In this document: positions 27,825-45,990 of the stretch, one piece after another
Numbering within the stretch: position 1 is the stretch's first letter
How the letters are laid out: each line of letters opens with the position of its first letter
Assembly (NCBI RefSeq): GCF_003337735.1
Contig: NZ_QPJY01000001.1
Coordinates: forward strand, 784,175 to 848,174
Source of the DNA: Thioalbus denitrificans
GTDB taxonomy: Bacteria > Pseudomonadota > Gammaproteobacteria > DSM-26407
Direction of reading: 5' to 3'
Length of the DNA: 64,000 nt
Position numbers and translations under genes: made by a program
Notes under the pieces: generated by a model
Database searches by the model: none
What the model was told of the DNA's origin: nothing
What the model saw: only the letters and a program-made list of their open reading frames with translations

Positions 27825-28084
27825 CATTCACCACGAAGGCACGAAGGGCACGAAGAACAGGCAACAGGAAGAGTTATCCGCAGATTACGCAGATGACGCA
27901 GATTTCCTTCATGCGGTCTAAAGCGCAGTACTCATTGTTCGGGAGGGGTGCTGCTTGAAGGACCGGGAAAAACCCCGGTCTTGGCTTCCGGTACCGAACC
28001 CGCAATCAGAACAAACAAATCTGCGTAATCTGCGTAATCTGCGGATAAACAGTCTTTGTCTCTGTTCGTGCCTTCGTGGTGGGA
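27825..28084. repeat. Nested hairpin element (type A-B ... B'-A')
   Basis: Outer arms are TTCACCACGAAGGCACGAAG (27828-27847, with a degenerate extra copy from 27805) and TTCGTGCCTTCGTGGTGGGA (28066-28084). Inner arms are TTATCCGCAGATTACGCAGA... (27874-27905) and its inverse (28018-28049). The centre is about 112 bases. It separates the antiporter gene from the EgtB-like gene. Confidence 0.88.
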
Positions 28085-31105: not shown

Positions 31106-31431
31106 AGCCGGTGATCCCCACTTCGGCGACGGCTCCCGCGGATCGCCCCGCCGCGGCGATCTGGTTCAGTGCGCCCGGCTGCGGTGTCTGCAGTGTCCTT
31201 CGGCCACGGGTCAAGTCGCTGTTCGAGCAGGAGTTTCCGCAGATCCTGTGGCAGGATGTGGATACTGCGGCGCAGCCGGAGGTAGCGGCACAACACCAGG
31301 TTTTCACCATTCCCACACTGCTGGTGTTCCTCGACGGGCGCGAATTTCTGCGCCGGGCGCGCAACTTCAGTCCGGCCGAGGTGCGGGACGCCCTCGCCCG
31401 ACCCTACGGTCTGTTGTTTGGTGATGCGTGA
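31102..31431 (+). CDS. Thioredoxin-like protein
   Basis: About 109 residues from a GTG that overlaps the phosphatase stop (GTGA). AAIWFSAPGCGVCSVLRPRV holds the active-site CGVC, and FTIPTLLVFLDGREFLRRAR carries the cis-Pro segment. No leader peptide. The stop codon lies within the first units of a GTGATGC-type heptamer repeat, so the C-terminal ...FGDA may be partly repeat-derived. Confidence 0.82.
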   Translation: MKPVIPTSATAPADRPAAAIWFSAPGCGVCSVLRPRVKSLFEQEFPQILWQDVDTAAQPEVAAQHQVFTIPTLLVFLDGREFLRRARNFSPAEVRDALARPYGLLFGDA

Positions 31432-31459
31432 GTGCGTCAGTGCGTGATGCGTGATGTGA
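31421..31459. repeat. Degenerate GTGATGC/GTGAGTGC heptamer repeat
   Basis: About five imperfect units (GTGATGC, GTGAGTGC, GTCAGTGC, GTGATGC, GTGATGT) straddle the stop codon of the thioredoxin gene. The same word order, GTGA(A)TGCGTGAGTGCGTGA, begins the arm of the four-helix-bundle element at 35877 and appears at 39110. Confidence 0.75.
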
Positions 31460-31670: not shown

Positions 31671-31769
31671 GCCGGTTCCGGGCCCATGCGCACCGATTCA
31701 GACCCCGTCCCCGGCACGGCCGGAGGAAGCGGGGCGTTCTGGTGCGGTTCTGATTGAGGATGAGTGCGT

Positions 31770-34445
31770 ATGTCCGTAGTAGCGAACGATATCGACCCCG
31801 TCGAAACCTCGGAATGGGTTGAGGCGATGGAGGCCGTCCTTGAGCGCGAGGGGCCCGAGCGCGCCCACTACCTTCTTGAGCGCCTGGTGGACAAGGCGCG
31901 CCGCTCCGGGGCCTATCTGCCCTATACGGCCAATACCGCCTACCTGAACACCATTCCGGCCGCCCTGGAAGAGCACATTCCGGGGGATCCGGAGATGGAG
32001 CGGCGCATCCGCGCCATCATCCGCTGGAACGCCATGGCCATGGTGGTGCGCGCCAATCGCGAAAGCTCCGAGCTCGGGGGGCACATCGCCACCCACGCCT
32101 CGGCGGCCACCCTCTACGATGTGGGCTACAACTACTTCTTCCACGGGCCGGAGGCGGAGCAGGGCGCCGACCTGGTCTACATCCAGGGCCATGCATCGCC
32201 CGGGGTCTACGCCCGCGCCTTCCTCGAGGGGCGCATCAGCGAGGCGCAGCTGGATCGTTTCCGCCAGGAGGTGGAGCCGGGCGGTCTTTCCTCCTATCCC
32301 CACCCCTGGCTGATGCGGGATTTCTGGCAGTTCCCCACCGTGTCCATGGGGCTCGGTCCGCTGCAGGCCATCTACCAGGCCCGGTTCATGAAATACCTGC
32401 ACAATCGCGGCCTGGCGGACACCAGCCAGCGCAAGGTATGGGCCTTCATGGGCGACGGCGAGATGGATGAGCCGGAGTCCCTGGGGGCCATCTCGCTGGC
32501 CGCCCGCGAGAAGCTCGACAACCTGGTGTTCGTGATCAACTGCAACCTGCAGCGGCTCGACGGCCCGGTGCGCGGCAACGGCAAGATCATCCAGGAGCTG
32601 GAGGCGGGCTTCCGCGGCGCCGGCTGGAATGTCATCAAGGTGATCTGGGGCCGCTACTGGGATCCGCTCATCGCCCGCGACACCCAGGGCATGCTGCTCC
32701 GGCGGATGGAAGAGGCGCTCGACGGCGACTACCAGAAGTACAAGAACCGCGGCGGCGCCTACACCCGCGAGAATTTCTTCGGCAAGTACCCCGAGCTCAA
32801 GGAGATGGTGGCCAACATGTCCGACCAGGACATCTGGCGCCTGAACCGCGGTGGCCACGATCCGCACAAGGTCTATGCCGCCTACGCCGCGGCGGTGAAG
32901 CACAACGGCCAGCCCACGGTGATCCTCGCCAAGACGGTCAAGGGCTACGGCATGGGCGCGGCGGGCGAGGCGGCCAACGTCACCCACTCCCAGAAGAAGA
33001 TGGATTTCGCGGCGCTGAAGCAGTTCCGCGATCGCTTCAACATCCCCGTACCCGACGACCAGCTGGAGCAGGTGCCCTACTACTACCCGGGCGAGGACAG
33101 CCCCGAGATCCGCTACCTGCGGGATCGCCGGGAGCGGCTCGGCGGCTCCCTGCCGGTGCGCCTCAACCAGGCCCCGTCCCTCGAGACTCCCCCGCTGAAG
33201 GCGTTCCAGAGCCAGCTCGACGGCTCCGGCGAGCGGGAGATCTCCACCACCATGGCCTTCGTGCGCATCCTCACCCAGCTGTCCCGGGACAAGGGCATCG
33301 GCAAGAACCTGGTGCCCATCGTGCCCGACGAGGCGCGCACCTTCGGCATGGAGGGGCTGTTCCGCCAGCTCGGCATTTACTCCCACTCCGGCCAGCTCTA
33401 CGAGCCGGAGGACAAGGACCAGCTGATGTGGTACCGGGAGGACAAGGCCGGACAGATCCTCGAGGAGGGCATCACCGAGGACGGCGCCATGGCCTCGTGG
33501 ATGGCCGCCGCCACCGCCTACAGCAGCTACGGGATCAACATGGTCCCCTTCTACATCTTCTACTCCATGTTCGGGTTCCAGCGCGTCGGCGACCTGGCCT
33601 GGGCGGCGGGTGACATGCAGGCGCGCGGCTTCCTCATCGGCGGCACCGCCGGGCGCACCACCCTGGCGGGCGAGGGCCTGCAGCACCAGGACGGCCACAG
33701 CTTCCTGCAGGCGGCCACCATTCCCAACTGCGTGGCCTACGATCCCTGCTACGCCTACGAACTGGCGGTGATCATCCAGGACGGACTGCGGCGCATGTTC
33801 CGCGAGCAGGAGAACGTCTTCTACTACATCACCACCATGAACGAGAACTACGCCCAGCCGGCCATGCCGCAGGGCGTGGAGGAGGGCATCCTCAAGGGCA
33901 TGTACCGGCTCCACGAGGCGCCTGCGCCGAAGGGACGCAAGAAGGCACCGCCGCGGGTGCAGCTGCTGGGTGCCGGCACCATCCTGCGCGAGGTGGAGGC
34001 GGCCGCCGAGCTGCTGGCCGCGGACTTCGGGGTGAGCGCCGACGTGTGGAGTGTCACCAGCTTCAACGAACTGCGCCGTGAAGGGCTGGACGTGGACCGC
34101 TGGAACCTGCTGCACCCCGGCGAAGCCCCGCGCACCTGCCACGTGACGCAGGCGCTCGGCGAGCGTCCCGGCCCGGTGGTGGCCGCCACCGACTACATCA
34201 AGGCCTACGCCGACCAGATCCGCGCCTGGGTCCCGGGCCGCTATGTCGTGCTCGGCACCGACGGCTTCGGCCGTTCCGATACCCGTGCCCATCTGCGCCG
34301 TTTCTTCGAGGTGGATCGCCACTACGTGGTGGTGGCGGCACTGCACGCCCTCGCGGGCGAGGGAACGATTCCCCCGGCGAAGGTGAAAGAGGCCATGGAG
34401 CGCTACGGCATCGACCCGGAGAAGCCCAATCCGGTCACCGTCTGA
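31770..34445 (+). CDS. aceE: Pyruvate dehydrogenase E1, homodimeric type
   Basis: A 891-residue E1 that decarboxylates pyruvate with thiamine diphosphate and reductively acetylates the lipoyl group of E2. The TPP-binding block is MGDGEMDEPES...NLVFVINCNLQRLDGPVRGN (about 227-262). Other conserved stretches include SSELGGHIATHASAATLYDVGYNYFF and LIGGTAGRTTLAGEGLQHQDGHS. The ATG at 31770 is nine bases after GAGGA; a GTG two codons earlier is less likely. Length and single-chain form are those of beta- and gammaproteobacteria. It is the first gene of the pdh operon. Confidence 0.98.
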   Translation: MSVVANDIDPVETSEWVEAMEAVLEREGPERAHYLLERLVDKARRSGAYLPYTANTAYLNTIPAALEEHIPGDPEMERRIRAIIRWNAMAMVVRANRESSELGGHIATHASAATLYDVGYNYFFHGPEAEQGADLVYIQGHASPGVYARAFLEGRISEAQLDRFRQEVEPGGLSSYPHPWLMRDFWQFPTVSMGLGPLQAIYQARFMKYLHNRGLADTSQRKVWAFMGDGEMDEPESLGAISLAAREKLDNLVFVINCNLQRLDGPVRGNGKIIQELEAGFRGAGWNVIKVIWGRYWDPLIARDTQGMLLRRMEEALDGDYQKYKNRGGAYTRENFFGKYPELKEMVANMSDQDIWRLNRGGHDPHKVYAAYAAAVKHNGQPTVILAKTVKGYGMGAAGEAANVTHSQKKMDFAALKQFRDRFNIPVPDDQLEQVPYYYPGEDSPEIRYLRDRRERLGGSLPVRLNQAPSLETPPLKAFQSQLDGSGEREISTTMAFVRILTQLSRDKGIGKNLVPIVPDEARTFGMEGLFRQLGIYSHSGQLYEPEDKDQLMWYREDKAGQILEEGITEDGAMASWMAAATAYSSYGINMVPFYIFYSMFGFQRVGDLAWAAGDMQARGFLIGGTAGRTTLAGEGLQHQDGHSFLQAATIPNCVAYDPCYAYELAVIIQDGLRRMFREQENVFYYITTMNENYAQPAMPQGVEEGILKGMYRLHEAPAPKGRKKAPPRVQLLGAGTILREVEAAAELLAADFGVSADVWSVTSFNELRREGLDVDRWNLLHPGEAPRTCHVTQALGERPGPVVAATDYIKAYADQIRAWVPGRYVVLGTDGFGRSDTRAHLRRFFEVDRHYVVVAALHALAGEGTIPPAKVKEAMERYGIDPEKPNPVTV

Positions 34446-34520
34446 CGGCCCCGGCTTCCGGTCACAGGCAATCGGCAGCGGGGCCGGCGGCGGCCGGCCC
34501 CACGCAGTGGAGGAATACCC

Positions 34521-35873
34521 TTGGGAACCCAGAAAGACGTCTTGATTCCCGACATCGGCGACTTCGCCGATGTGGATGTGATTGAAGTGGTGGTGGCCCC
34601 CGGCGACCGGGTGGATGTCGACGATCCGCTCCTCACCCTGGAGAGCGACAAGGCCTCCATGGACATCCCGGCGCCCTTCGCCGGCGTGGTGAAGGAGGTG
34701 AAGGTCAAGGTGGGCGACAAGGTCTCCGAGGGGGATGTCGCGTTCGTCATCGAGGCCGAGACGGCAGGAGCACAGGTACCCGCCGTGGAGTCGGCGCAGG
34801 CGGCTGTCCCGGCTCCTGAGCCGAAGGCCGTGCCCGCCCCGGAGACCCGTGCCGCGCCTCCGCCTGCCCAGGCGGCAGCGGAATCCATGGCGGAGACGCC
34901 GGCATCGCCCTGGCAGCCGCCGCCCGTGCCCGCCTATCCCGCCATGAGCGAGGTGGCCACGGGGCAGGTTCACGCCAGCCCCTCGGTGCGTCGCTTCGCC
35001 CGTGAGCTGGGGGCGGATCTCGCCAAGGTGACCGGAACCGGGCCCAAGGGGCGCATCCTCAAGGAGGACGTCCAGGGTTTCGTCAAGTACGAGCTTTCCC
35101 GGCCCAAGGCCACCCCCGCCGGCGGCTCCGGGTTCAGCCTGCCGGAGATGCCGGAGGTGGATTTCAGCCGCTTCGGCGAAATCGAGACCCAGCCTCTTTC
35201 GCGCATCAGGAAGATCTCCGGTGCGAACCTGCAGCGCAACTGGATCACCGTTCCCCACGTGACCCAGCACGACGAGGCCGACATCACCGACATGGAGGCC
35301 TTCCGCAAGGCTCAGGGCGAGATCGCGGCCAGGGAGGGTGTGCGCCTGACCCCGCTGGTGTTCCTGATGAAGGCCTGCGTGGCGGCGCTGAAGGCCTACC
35401 CGGACGTGAACAGTTCGCTCGCGCCCGACGGCGAGAACCTGATCCTGAAAAAGTACTTCCATATCGGCGTGGCGGTGGACACCCCCAACGGCCTGGTGGT
35501 GCCGGTGATCCGGGACGTGGACCGGAAGGGGCTCATGGCGCTGGCCCGCGAGCTCGGCGACGTGAGTGCCAAGGCGCGCGAGGGCAAGCTCGGCCCGGCG
35601 GACATGCAGGGCGGCTGCTTCACCATCTCGAGCCTCGGCGGCATCGGGGGAACCCAGTTCACCCCCATCGTCAACGCCCCCGAAGTGGCCATCCTCGGCG
35701 TCTCCCGCGCCGAGATGAAGCCGATCTACGACGGCCAGGGCGGATTCGTGCCGCGGCTGATGCTCCCCCTGTCGCTCTCCTATGACCACCGGGTCATCGA
35801 CGGCGCCGCCGCCGCCCGCTTCACCACCTACCTGCGCCGCTTGCTGGGGGACATCAGGACGTTGTTGCTGTGA
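34521..35873 (+). CDS. aceF: Dihydrolipoamide acetyltransferase (E2 of PDH)
   Basis: A 450-residue E2 core enzyme. One lipoyl domain has the modified lysine K44 in LESDKASMDIP. A long Ala/Pro linker (about 78-145) follows, then a peripheral-subunit-binding domain (VHASPSVRRFARELGADLAKV...GRILKEDV). The catalytic acetyltransferase domain carries SYDHRVIDGA near the C-terminus. The start is a TTG behind GGAGGA. Many gammaproteobacterial AceF proteins have two or three lipoyl domains; this has one. Its TGA stop lies inside the left terminus of the repeat element, so the last codons sit right at the element border. Confidence 0.97.
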   Translation: MGTQKDVLIPDIGDFADVDVIEVVVAPGDRVDVDDPLLTLESDKASMDIPAPFAGVVKEVKVKVGDKVSEGDVAFVIEAETAGAQVPAVESAQAAVPAPEPKAVPAPETRAAPPPAQAAAESMAETPASPWQPPPVPAYPAMSEVATGQVHASPSVRRFARELGADLAKVTGTGPKGRILKEDVQGFVKYELSRPKATPAGGSGFSLPEMPEVDFSRFGEIETQPLSRIRKISGANLQRNWITVPHVTQHDEADITDMEAFRKAQGEIAAREGVRLTPLVFLMKACVAALKAYPDVNSSLAPDGENLILKKYFHIGVAVDTPNGLVVPVIRDVDRKGLMALARELGDVSAKAREGKLGPADMQGGCFTISSLGGIGGTQFTPIVNAPEVAILGVSRAEMKPIYDGQGGFVPRLMLPLSLSYDHRVIDGAAAARFTTYLRRLLGDIRTLLL

Positions 35874-35892
35874 TGGGTGAATGCGTGAGTGC

Positions 35893-36074
35893 GTGATGGG
35901 TGATGGGTGATGGGTGATGGGTGATGGGTGATGGGTGATGGGTGATGGGTGATGAGTGATGGGTGATGAGTGATGAGTGATGGGTGATGGGTGATGGGTG
36001 ATGGGTGATGAGTGATGGGTGATGAGTGATGGGTGATGAGTGATGAGTGATGAGTGATGAGTGATGAGTGATGG
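35893..36074 (+). repeat. 26-copy heptamer tandem repeat GTGATG(G/A)
   Basis: Twenty-six contiguous 7-base units without a single insertion or deletion. Only the last base of each unit varies (G in units 1-8, then mixed, mostly A at the right end). The purity suggests recent slippage expansion and a probable length-polymorphic locus. Confidence 0.97.
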
Positions 36075-36083
36075 GGTGCTCTC

Positions 36084-36461
36084 ATGGATGAGACGAGCAA
36101 CGCATATGGACACAAACGACTTCTGGTGTGGAAGCAATCCATGGAGCTGGTGGTGGCAACCTATGCTGCGACACGCGCCTTTCCGGCAGTTGAGCGTCAT
36201 GGATTGGCCTCACAGATGCAGCGTGCGGCAGTATCCATTCCGAGCAATATCGCAGAAGGATCTGCCAGGGGATCAAAGCGCGATTCGTTGAGGTTTTATG
36301 TCTTTGCCAGGGGAAGCATCGCCGAGCTTGACACCCAGTTCGAGATTGCCAGGAGGCTTGGGTACCTTGACGAAGTAAGGTTTCGCGAGCTGACCTTGAG
36401 GCTGGATCGGATTAGTCGCCTGCTGAACGGCTTGAGGAATGCCCATTCGGCGGGTTCTTGA
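36084..36461 (+). CDS. Four-helix-bundle protein (TIGR02436 / S23-like, Avd-related fold)
   Basis: A 125-residue protein. HKRLLVWKQSMELVVATYAATRAFP, then ERHGLASQMQRAAVSIPSNIAEG, SARGSKRDSLRFYVFARGSIAELDTQ and FEIARRLGYLD match the four-helix-bundle family encoded in 23S rRNA intervening sequences, which is also the fold of the Avd protein of diversity-generating retroelements. These are small basic homopentamers that bind nucleic acid in the studied cases. The ATG lies ten bases beyond the last GTGATGG unit and has no proper Shine-Dalgarno beyond the purine-rich repeat. No reverse transcriptase or template/variable repeat is nearby, so this is not a DGR. Confidence 0.9.
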   Translation: MDETSNAYGHKRLLVWKQSMELVVATYAATRAFPAVERHGLASQMQRAAVSIPSNIAEGSARGSKRDSLRFYVFARGSIAELDTQFEIARRLGYLDEVRFRELTLRLDRISRLLNGLRNAHSAGS

Positions 36462-36548
36462 GAGCCCATCACCCATCACCCATAACGCATCACAGCGATT
36501 TGAGTTTCCACGGCATTCACGCCAACCCAATGACAGGAACAAAGCCGA

Positions 36549-38294
36549 ATGAGCAAGACAGTCGAAATCCGCGTTCCCGACATCGGCAATTTCGAGAACG
36601 TGGATGTGATCGAGGTGCTGGTGGCGCCGGGGGACGCGGTCGAGGCCGAGACCTCGCTCATCACCCTGGAGAGTGACAAGGCCACCATGGATGTCCCGTC
36701 GCCGCAGGCCGGCGTGGTGCGGGAGCTGCATGTGGCGGTGGGCGACAAGGTCTCCACGGGCAGCCTCGTCCTGCTGCTGGAGACTGCGGCCAGTGGCGCG
36801 GCGGTTGCCCAAGCGCCCGCGGCGGCCCCCGAAAAGGCCCCGGCCGCCGCTCCCTCGCCGCAGGCGGCAACCACCGCCGAGGGGGACCTCCATGCCGAGG
36901 TGGTGGTGCTGGGTGCCGGCCCCGGCGGCTACACGGCCGCGTTCCGGGCCGCGGACCTGGGCCTGAAGACCGTGCTGGTGGAGCGCCACGCCCGCCTGGG
37001 CGGGGTGTGCCTCAACGTGGGCTGCATTCCCTCCAAGGCGCTGCTGCACGCGGCGAAGGTCATCGACGAGGCCGCCGAGATGGCGGAGCACGGCATCCGC
37101 TTCGGCGCGCCCGAGGTGGACCTGGACGCCCTGCGCGGCTGGAAGGAGAGCGTGGTGGACCGCCTCACCAAGGGTCTCGGCGGCCTGGCGAAGCAGCGCA
37201 AGGTGACGGTGGTGCAGGGGCGGGCCCGCTTCGCCGCCCCCAACCAGCTGCTGGTGGAGACCGCGGAGGGAGCCCGCCGGATCCTGTTCGACAAGGCCAT
37301 CATCGCCGCCGGTTCGCGCCCGGTCCGGCTGCCGTTCCTGCCCGAGGATCCGCGCATCATCGACTCCACCGGGGCGCTGGCCCTGGCGGATGTGCCGGGG
37401 CGCATGCTGGTCATCGGCGGCGGCATCATCGGCCTGGAGATGGCGACCGTCTATCACGCCCTGGGCGCGGCGGTCTCGGTGGTGGAGCTGCAGGACAGCC
37501 TCATTCCGGGCTGCGACAAGGACCTGGTGACCCCGCTCACCCGGCGGGTGAAGAAGCGCTACGAGAACATCTGGCTGCAGACGAAGGTGACCGCCGTGGA
37601 GGCGCGCGAGGACGGCCTGCACGTGACCTTCGAGGGCGCCCAGGCGCCGGCGGAGCCGCAGCGCTTCGATCGTATCCTGGTGGCGGTGGGGCGCACCCCC
37701 AACGGCCGTGACATCGGCGCCGAGGCCGCCGGCGTGGCGGTGGACGAGCGCGGCTTCATCCCCGTGGACGCGCAGATGCGCACCAACGTGGCGCACATCC
37801 ATGCCATCGGCGACATCGTCGGCAATCCCATGCTGGCCCACAAGGCGAGCCACGAGGGCAAGATTGCCGCCGAGGTATGCGCCGGCCTGAAGAGCCGTTT
37901 CGATGCCCAGGTGATCCCCTCGGTGGCCTACACCGACCCGGAAGTGGCCTGGGTGGGCGTCACCGAGACCGAGGCGAAGGCCGAGGGGCGCAAGGTGGGC
38001 AAGGGCGCCTTCCCCTGGGCCGCCAGCGGCCGCTCCCTGAGCCTGGGGCGCGACGAGGGCCTGACCAAGCTCATCTTCGACGAGGAGACCCACCGGGTCA
38101 TCGGCATGGGCGTGGTGGGCCCCAATGCCGGCGAGCTCATCAGTGAGGGGGCGCTGGCCATCGAGATGGGGGCCGATGCCGCCGACATCGGGCTGACCAT
38201 CCATCCCCACCCGACCCTGTCCGAGAGCGTCATGATGGCCGCCGAGGCCTTCGAGGGCACCCTCACCGACCTCTACCTGCCGAAGAAGAAGTGA
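36549..38294 (+). CDS. lpdA: Dihydrolipoyl dehydrogenase with N-terminal lipoyl domain (E3 of PDH)
   Basis: A 581-residue E3. Residues 1-80 are a lipoyl domain (K44 in [11 protein letters not shown]), then an Ala/Pro linker. The flavoprotein starts at about 115: FAD motif [10 protein letters not shown], redox disulfide C154/C159 in [16 protein letters not shown] motif [19 protein letters not shown], and C-terminal catalytic HPHPTLSE. The lipoyl-fused form is typical of E3 dedicated to pyruvate dehydrogenase in beta- and gammaproteobacteria. It would normally follow aceF closely; here the repeat element adds about 630 bases between them. Confidence 0.97.
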
Positions 38295-38296
38295 TT

Positions 38297-38505
38297 GTTG
38301 ATAGACAGGATTTACAGGATTGACGGGATAGAGACCAAACGCCGTTTATCCGCAGATTACGCAGATTACGCAGATTGAATCCGGAGCCGGGCCGTGTCGG
38401 GCAAGACGTGGCCATCCGATGTCTCACGGTATGAGCGCAATCGATGGCCGAAACGTCTTCAAACATCCTGTAAATCCTGTAAATCCTGTTAATCCTGTCT
38501 ATTCC
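38297..38505. repeat. Hairpin element with AATCCTGT-word arms
   Basis: The left arm at 38297-38329 (GACAGGATTTACAGGATT...) pairs with the right arm 38463-38503 built from AATCCTGTA units. Inside the left arm an ATTACGCAG-word arm (38346-38376) has no surviving partner. It starts three bases after the lpdA stop and ends just before the ribosome site of the next gene. Confidence 0.85.
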
Positions 38506-45775: not shown

Positions 45776-45990
45776 TTATCCGCGGATTACGCAGATTACG
45801 CAGATTACGCAGATTACGCAGATTGAGCGAGTATTGCGTGGAGTCCTTTATGGATCTTGCGGCTTCTCCTTTCATGCAGGCCCCGAAAGGCTGGCTTGGG
45901 AGCCGCAAACAGAGCACCTGAATAAAAATCTGCGTAATCTGCGTAATCTGCGGACAAAACTTCTTTTCGTCTTTTATCCTGTCTAATCAG
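45776..45990. repeat. Hairpin element with ATTACGCAG-word arms of unequal length
   Basis: The left arm 45776-45824 has about five ATTACGCAG units (TTATCCGCGGATTACGCAG...). The right arm 45925-45954 has about three. The centre of about 100 bases lacks a gene. An AATCCTGT-type fragment (TTATCCTGTCTAAT, 45974-45987) at the right edge resembles the end of the element at 38505. It fills the convergent space between cobD and cobQ. Confidence 0.88.

Follow-up and report, generated by a model that had tools for sequence, protein, structure and literature searches.

The PF05635 family is named after open reading frames that lie within the intervening sequences (IVSs) of 23S rRNA. According to Warrier et al. 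(2016, PMC4990558), the 23S IVS of Coxiella burnetii has heptameric direct repeats of variable number ahead of the start of the S23p ORF, and its terminal inverted repeats form a 28-bp stem that RNase III cleaves in vitro. Heptamers have also been published as intergenic repeats, namely GGGAATC in Xanthomonas and GGGGA(C/T)T in Nostoc (PMC4692102) and TAACTGA in the Beggiatoaceae (PMC4679880). Bacteria are known to have an excess of heptamer repeats, which was put down to polymerase slippage (PMC4692102); the ideas put forward in the two papers involve slippage, G-quadruplexes or regulation and no gene partner is named. The homology between IVP, the PF05635-type protein encoded at the locus studied here, and the DGR accessory protein Avd was noted in PMC10053308.

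The window analysed here (the whole stretch of 64,000 nucleotides) derives from Thioalbus denitrificans. Its heptamer locus resembles the 23S rRNA IVSs in that a gene of the same family lies in the middle, inverted repeats form the ends and heptamers precede the start codon, but it is located between aceF and lpd and not inside an rRNA gene, and its arms are long and near-pure heptamer arrays. With the repeats of Xanthomonas, Nostoc and the Beggiatoaceae it shares tandem intergenic units of 7 bases that vary in length and are sometimes inverted; in contrast to those, the arrays here flank PF05635 genes. REP/RAYT and MITE-type repeats likewise combine a small gene and flanking palindromes with many gene-less palindromes in the genome, but in the present case there is no transposase, the arms consist of tandem heptamers whose sequence is free, and no target duplication was seen. 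IVP has the same fold as Avd (4dwl, 8ub7; TM-score about 0.75), which is part of an RNA-binding DGR complex, whereas the sequence identity between the two is 7-11% and this genome has no reverse transcriptase (RT). Our literature search retrieved no paper that links heptamer arrays to PF05635, a novelty that is provisional, as most subscription papers were outside its reach.

Anatomy of the aceF-lpd locus

The 26-fold array is not a stand-alone VNTR but belongs to a small element, in which the IVP gene lies between two inverted heptamer arrays that form its arms (Table 1). The 26 units (a count that may depend on the assembly if this is based on short reads, since 182 bp of near-perfect repeat exceeds a short read) are contiguous, in register and free of indels, and they vary only at base 7, which is G in units 1-8, mixed in mid-array, A in units 21-25 and G in unit 26. 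The unbroken register, the variation at base 7, and the G-rich aceF side and A-rich gene side are as described in the initial annotation. TRF called the array at 35870-36075 with 29.1 copies (score 310). A genome search with three consecutive GTGATG units gave 61 placements versus 0 for the pattern read backwards, and the array is far beyond chance. The opposite arm comprises about four CCCATCA units, of which two are perfect and the others have a mismatch, in line with the four units reported earlier; what had been missed is that the arms form an inverted pair, a structure that is general to the PF05635 family.

Table 1. Features of the element and its host genes, in window coordinates
Feature	Position	Strand	Basis
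aceF, upstream host gene	34521..35873	+	ORF and lipoyl/acyltransferase sequence
Three imperfect units GTGATGG GTGAATGC GTGAGTGC, start of the 5' arm	35870..35892	+	sequence; same kinds of units in the congener G001
5' arm, 26 x GTGATGR	35893..36074	+	TRF; G001 has 7 units there
PF05635 / TIGR02436 gene (IVP, 125 aa)	36084..36461	+	Pfam and TIGR02436 matches; model
3' arm, ~4 inverted units (CCCATCA on the + strand)	36465..36493	-	sequence, TRF; predicted RNA pairing with the 5' arm
lpd, downstream host gene	36549..38294	+	ORF

The stop codon of aceF (TGA, 35871-35873) lies inside the first imperfect unit of the 5' arm. In the sense direction the array contains TGA in all three frames and is therefore untranslatable; in the antisense direction it is open in all three. 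The earlier expectation that copy changes would shift a translated frame is thus irrelevant, and a frame-shift or phase-variation reading of the array was rejected on the same ground. A minus-strand ORF of 1500 aa (31698-36200), which runs antisense across aceE, aceF and the array, is an artefact, because CATCACY has no stop in any frame. The gene cluster also contains, 5' of aceE (31421-31456), a short and degenerate array of GTGATGC.

In the predicted RNA fold the arms CCCATCACCCATCACC and GGTGATGGGTGATGGG are paired (z -2.7), and the ORF is thus surrounded by stem-capable terminal inverted repeats, as in the 23S rRNA IVSs. Against a full stem at this locus speaks the fact that 26 units face only four, which leaves most of the 5' arm without a 3' partner. 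A scan of the region revealed no sigma-70-like promoter, and an Rfam search gave no match above threshold.

IVP scores well over the curated cut-offs of PF05635 (120.6 bits, cut-off 33.8, E=4e-35) and TIGR02436 (115.8 bits, cut-off 24, E=1e-33) and its model is a four-helix bundle (pLDDT 92.6), so that by profile and fold it is a member of the family and the four-helix assignment of the initial annotation holds. Among solved structures, 2gsc and 2rld of the same family come closest, followed by Avd. Homologues were found in none of 50,697 phage records and in 23 plasmid records, mostly cyanobacterial. The Calothrix plasmids were considered as a case of arm-only transposition and rejected, the IVP gene being located in a block common to two plasmids and adjoining an integrase gene.

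In the congener G001 the aceF-lpd site holds the same gene, with 7 units versus 26 here, and the suggestion that the copy number is variable is borne out. The IVP gene and its 3' flank differ from G001 at 1/465 positions, against 6.7% for aceF and 4.3% for lpd; this local dip in divergence fits a recent exchange or conversion of the element, although strong constraint may also account for it. At two other IVP sites of the genome, G001 has neither an IVP gene nor a heptamer array and contains other short repeats instead; at its cbbQ-cbbO-like and ahcY-metF sites (L160, L163) these are inverted repeats built on GGCGCCAAG. The sites are filled differently in G001, as if the gaps attract different short-repeat elements.

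The genome encodes four PF05635 genes, with heptamers near each and a different unit each time: GGTGGCC, ACACGGA (in an array ~190 bp away from its gene), GTGAGGG (in short, imperfect arms) and GTGATGR. For the GTGATG unit, to which the count applies, there are in addition 15 gene-less array loci, 10 of them palindromic (opposite-strand units within 80 nt). The spacer between the inverted heptamers of gene-less arrays (L020, L022, L024, L019) often reads GGGA..AACGGC or similar, which may be a core that is conserved among such arrays. Nine-base arrays, CGCAGATTA and ATCCTGTAA, are found at 27879-27904 / 28018-28043, 45781-45824 / 45927-45952, 38351-38376 and 38465-38498, twice as inverted pairs ~100-150 nt apart with no gene between them; these are a second class of short-tandem palindromes in the same genome.

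Inverted heptamer arrays recur at PF05635 loci across phyla

The plan of a G-rich heptamer array, an IVP gene and an inverted C-rich heptamer array is recurrent in PF05635 loci across phyla. In a first set of 80 loci from many phyla, picked by a conserved motif, the flanks (250 bp adjoining the gene) were compared with other segments of the same loci. Runs of period 7 were found in 28/155 flanks (vs 1.5% of the control segments) and runs of period 14 in 35/155 (vs 1.0%), with no comparable enrichment for other periods; in a second set, period 7 was present in 48/136 flanks. In 45/77 loci the pairing of inverted arms equalled or exceeded the 99th percentile for mismatched locus pairs (p=5e-23), and in the combined set 81/124 loci had inverted arms tight to the gene versus 0/124 inverted control pairs, 800 bp away, at the same score; as gene starts were called heuristically and some arms are blurred, these arm counts are probably conservative. 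Among the 40 loci with a clear unit in both arms, 32 had 5' and 3' units that agreed as reverse complements in 6-7 of the 7 bases, compared to ~5% of mismatched pairs. The heptamer is thus alike within a locus and different between loci. The arms end at a median of 15 nt before the start codon and begin again 12 nt after the stop, and the 5'-arm unit is strand-asymmetric in composition (G 40%, C 10%). A stem is not universal, since ~29% of the loci are without significant paired arms and in ~10-13% the arms are direct and not inverted.

In 60 flanks of ParE-toxin genes from relatives there was no array, whatever the period, compared to period 7 in 17/34 flanks of IVP genes, and background sampling of two IVP genomes yielded 0 and 1 arrays per ~0.1 Mb each; the low background implies that the link between IVP and heptamers does not simply reflect repeat-rich genomes. 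The heptamer tracks the protein only among close relatives (below 70% identity the rank correlation is 0.12), and fixed-sequence recognition by each IVP is therefore not established. Two further lines of evidence were set aside: RNA duplex energies were uninformative, GC-rich distant flanks scoring nearly as high as the arms, and we make no claim on stop codons in the 5'-arm unit (40/73 vs 31 expected), as the opposite strand is enriched too. The nuclease-like GxxExxY genes (PF13366; L182, L183, L175, L184) in relatives showed period-8/9 arrays in 4/32 flanks and period 7 in none, perhaps a parallel pairing of gene and repeat with another unit length, albeit in a small sample.

Elements of this plan mostly sit between neighbouring genes. 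Where both neighbours are co-directional, 85 elements are in sense and 2 in antisense orientation, and the gap on either side of the element is about the size of an arm, which fits an element that lives in transcripts. PF05635 elements in 23S rRNA, as placed from their flanking sequence (L040, L240/L241), have the same kind of arms. We conclude that the rRNA IVSs and the operon elements are of one kind; by analogy, the operon elements may also be processed like the rRNA IVSs.

Filled and empty sites

In one other genus (61 genomes), sites with and without the element were compared. At nuoC|nuoD, 25 of the 30 loci read are empty: the two genes are separated by a few bases, and heptamers are absent. 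Three others contain an IVP gene and arms (two of AGTAGTG type, one of GAATGGT type), and two (L266, L278) hold unrelated small ORFs without repeats, from which it follows that this junction in an essential operon accepts other insertions. A site next to an acyl-CoA dehydrogenase gene is filled with GGCAGTA-armed elements in 12 cases, empty in 17 and occupied by a gene-less palindromic heptamer array in one (L310). Arms and gene come and go together, because the empty sites are without heptamers and the filled sites have both. The orthologous arms at the latter site range from 2 to 11 and from 1 to 15 units, with the ORF intact in 12/12 and a dN/dS of 0.07 that indicates strong purifying selection: a conserved protein sits between fast-changing arms. 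On the tree of the flanks, presence of IVP changed at least 5 times. Neither a target-site duplication nor a clean excision scar was seen at these sites, filled and empty sisters differ in their intergenic sequence, and recombination of the flanks may explain part of the turnover.

Origin and possible role of the arms

The array is probably the 5' arm of a compact IVS-type element that was inserted between aceF and lpd and whose arms pair in the transcript. Such an element would be co-transcribed with the host operon, and its arms would pair in the RNA, by which the IVP gene would come to lie in a loop that is folded away or cut out (by RNase III in the rRNA case); this folding or excision would make the insertion tolerable. 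Arm length would drift through slippage, and the Avd-like IVP may bind its own arms or stem and help to maintain or spread the element.

That the locus is a mobile element proper, where IVP and a host factor recognise the arms and move the arm-gene-arm unit and where gene-less palindromic arrays are non-autonomous copies, is a serious possibility, if short of an even chance. The unit-like presence and absence, the gene-less palindrome at a shared site (L310) together with the palindromic form of most gene-less GTGATG arrays, and the patchy distribution of IVP among phyla, with closest relatives that are ~50% identical and belong to different phyla, all point in this direction. On the other hand, no element was observed to transpose to a new site, the element has diverged about as much as its flanks at the acyl-CoA dehydrogenase site, and the heptamer follows the protein weakly. 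Of the mobilising enzymes, RT was searched for: PF00078 had no match in this genome (G000, 99.7% complete), and G140, G160, G041 and G038 likewise have no RT; RT-driven retrohoming as in DGRs was rejected for its lack in these genomes.

It is unlikely that the arms are functionless products of slippage, the gene having inserted into slippage-prone DNA or the palindromes of an insertion having expanded: the wide variation in arm length and purity and the published attribution of the heptamer excess to slippage (PMC4692102) would agree with this, but the arrays are specific to PF05635 and to period 7/14 and absent around ParE, empty sites are without heptamers, the unit is strand-asymmetric and the same plan recurs across phyla with unrelated heptamers. 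Less likely still is a contingency-locus VNTR, in which slippage in the leader alters expression of the downstream gene, the role suggested in the initial annotation. The array does lie directly before the start codon and differs in copy number between related species, but inverted arrays flank the gene on both sides, the heptamer changes from locus to locus and offers no fixed regulatory site, and the repeat is untranslatable and without a promoter-like match.

Beyond the IVS-type element at this locus, we tentatively propose that PF05635 genes with paired heptamer arrays form one class of IVS-like elements, small and probably mobile, that is present domain-wide in protein operons. The heptamers would be the cis substrate of the Avd-like protein, the gene-less palindromic arrays would be relics or non-autonomous copies, and the class would account for part of the bacterial heptamer excess. 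The strong link between the repeats and PF05635 ties together the function of the IVP/S23 proteins, the origin of the rRNA IVSs and the excess of seven-base repeats in bacteria, and it opens direct tests, namely of binding of the protein to its own heptamer and of removal of the stem from mRNA. It also warns against taking every heptamer array near a gene for a phase-variation switch.
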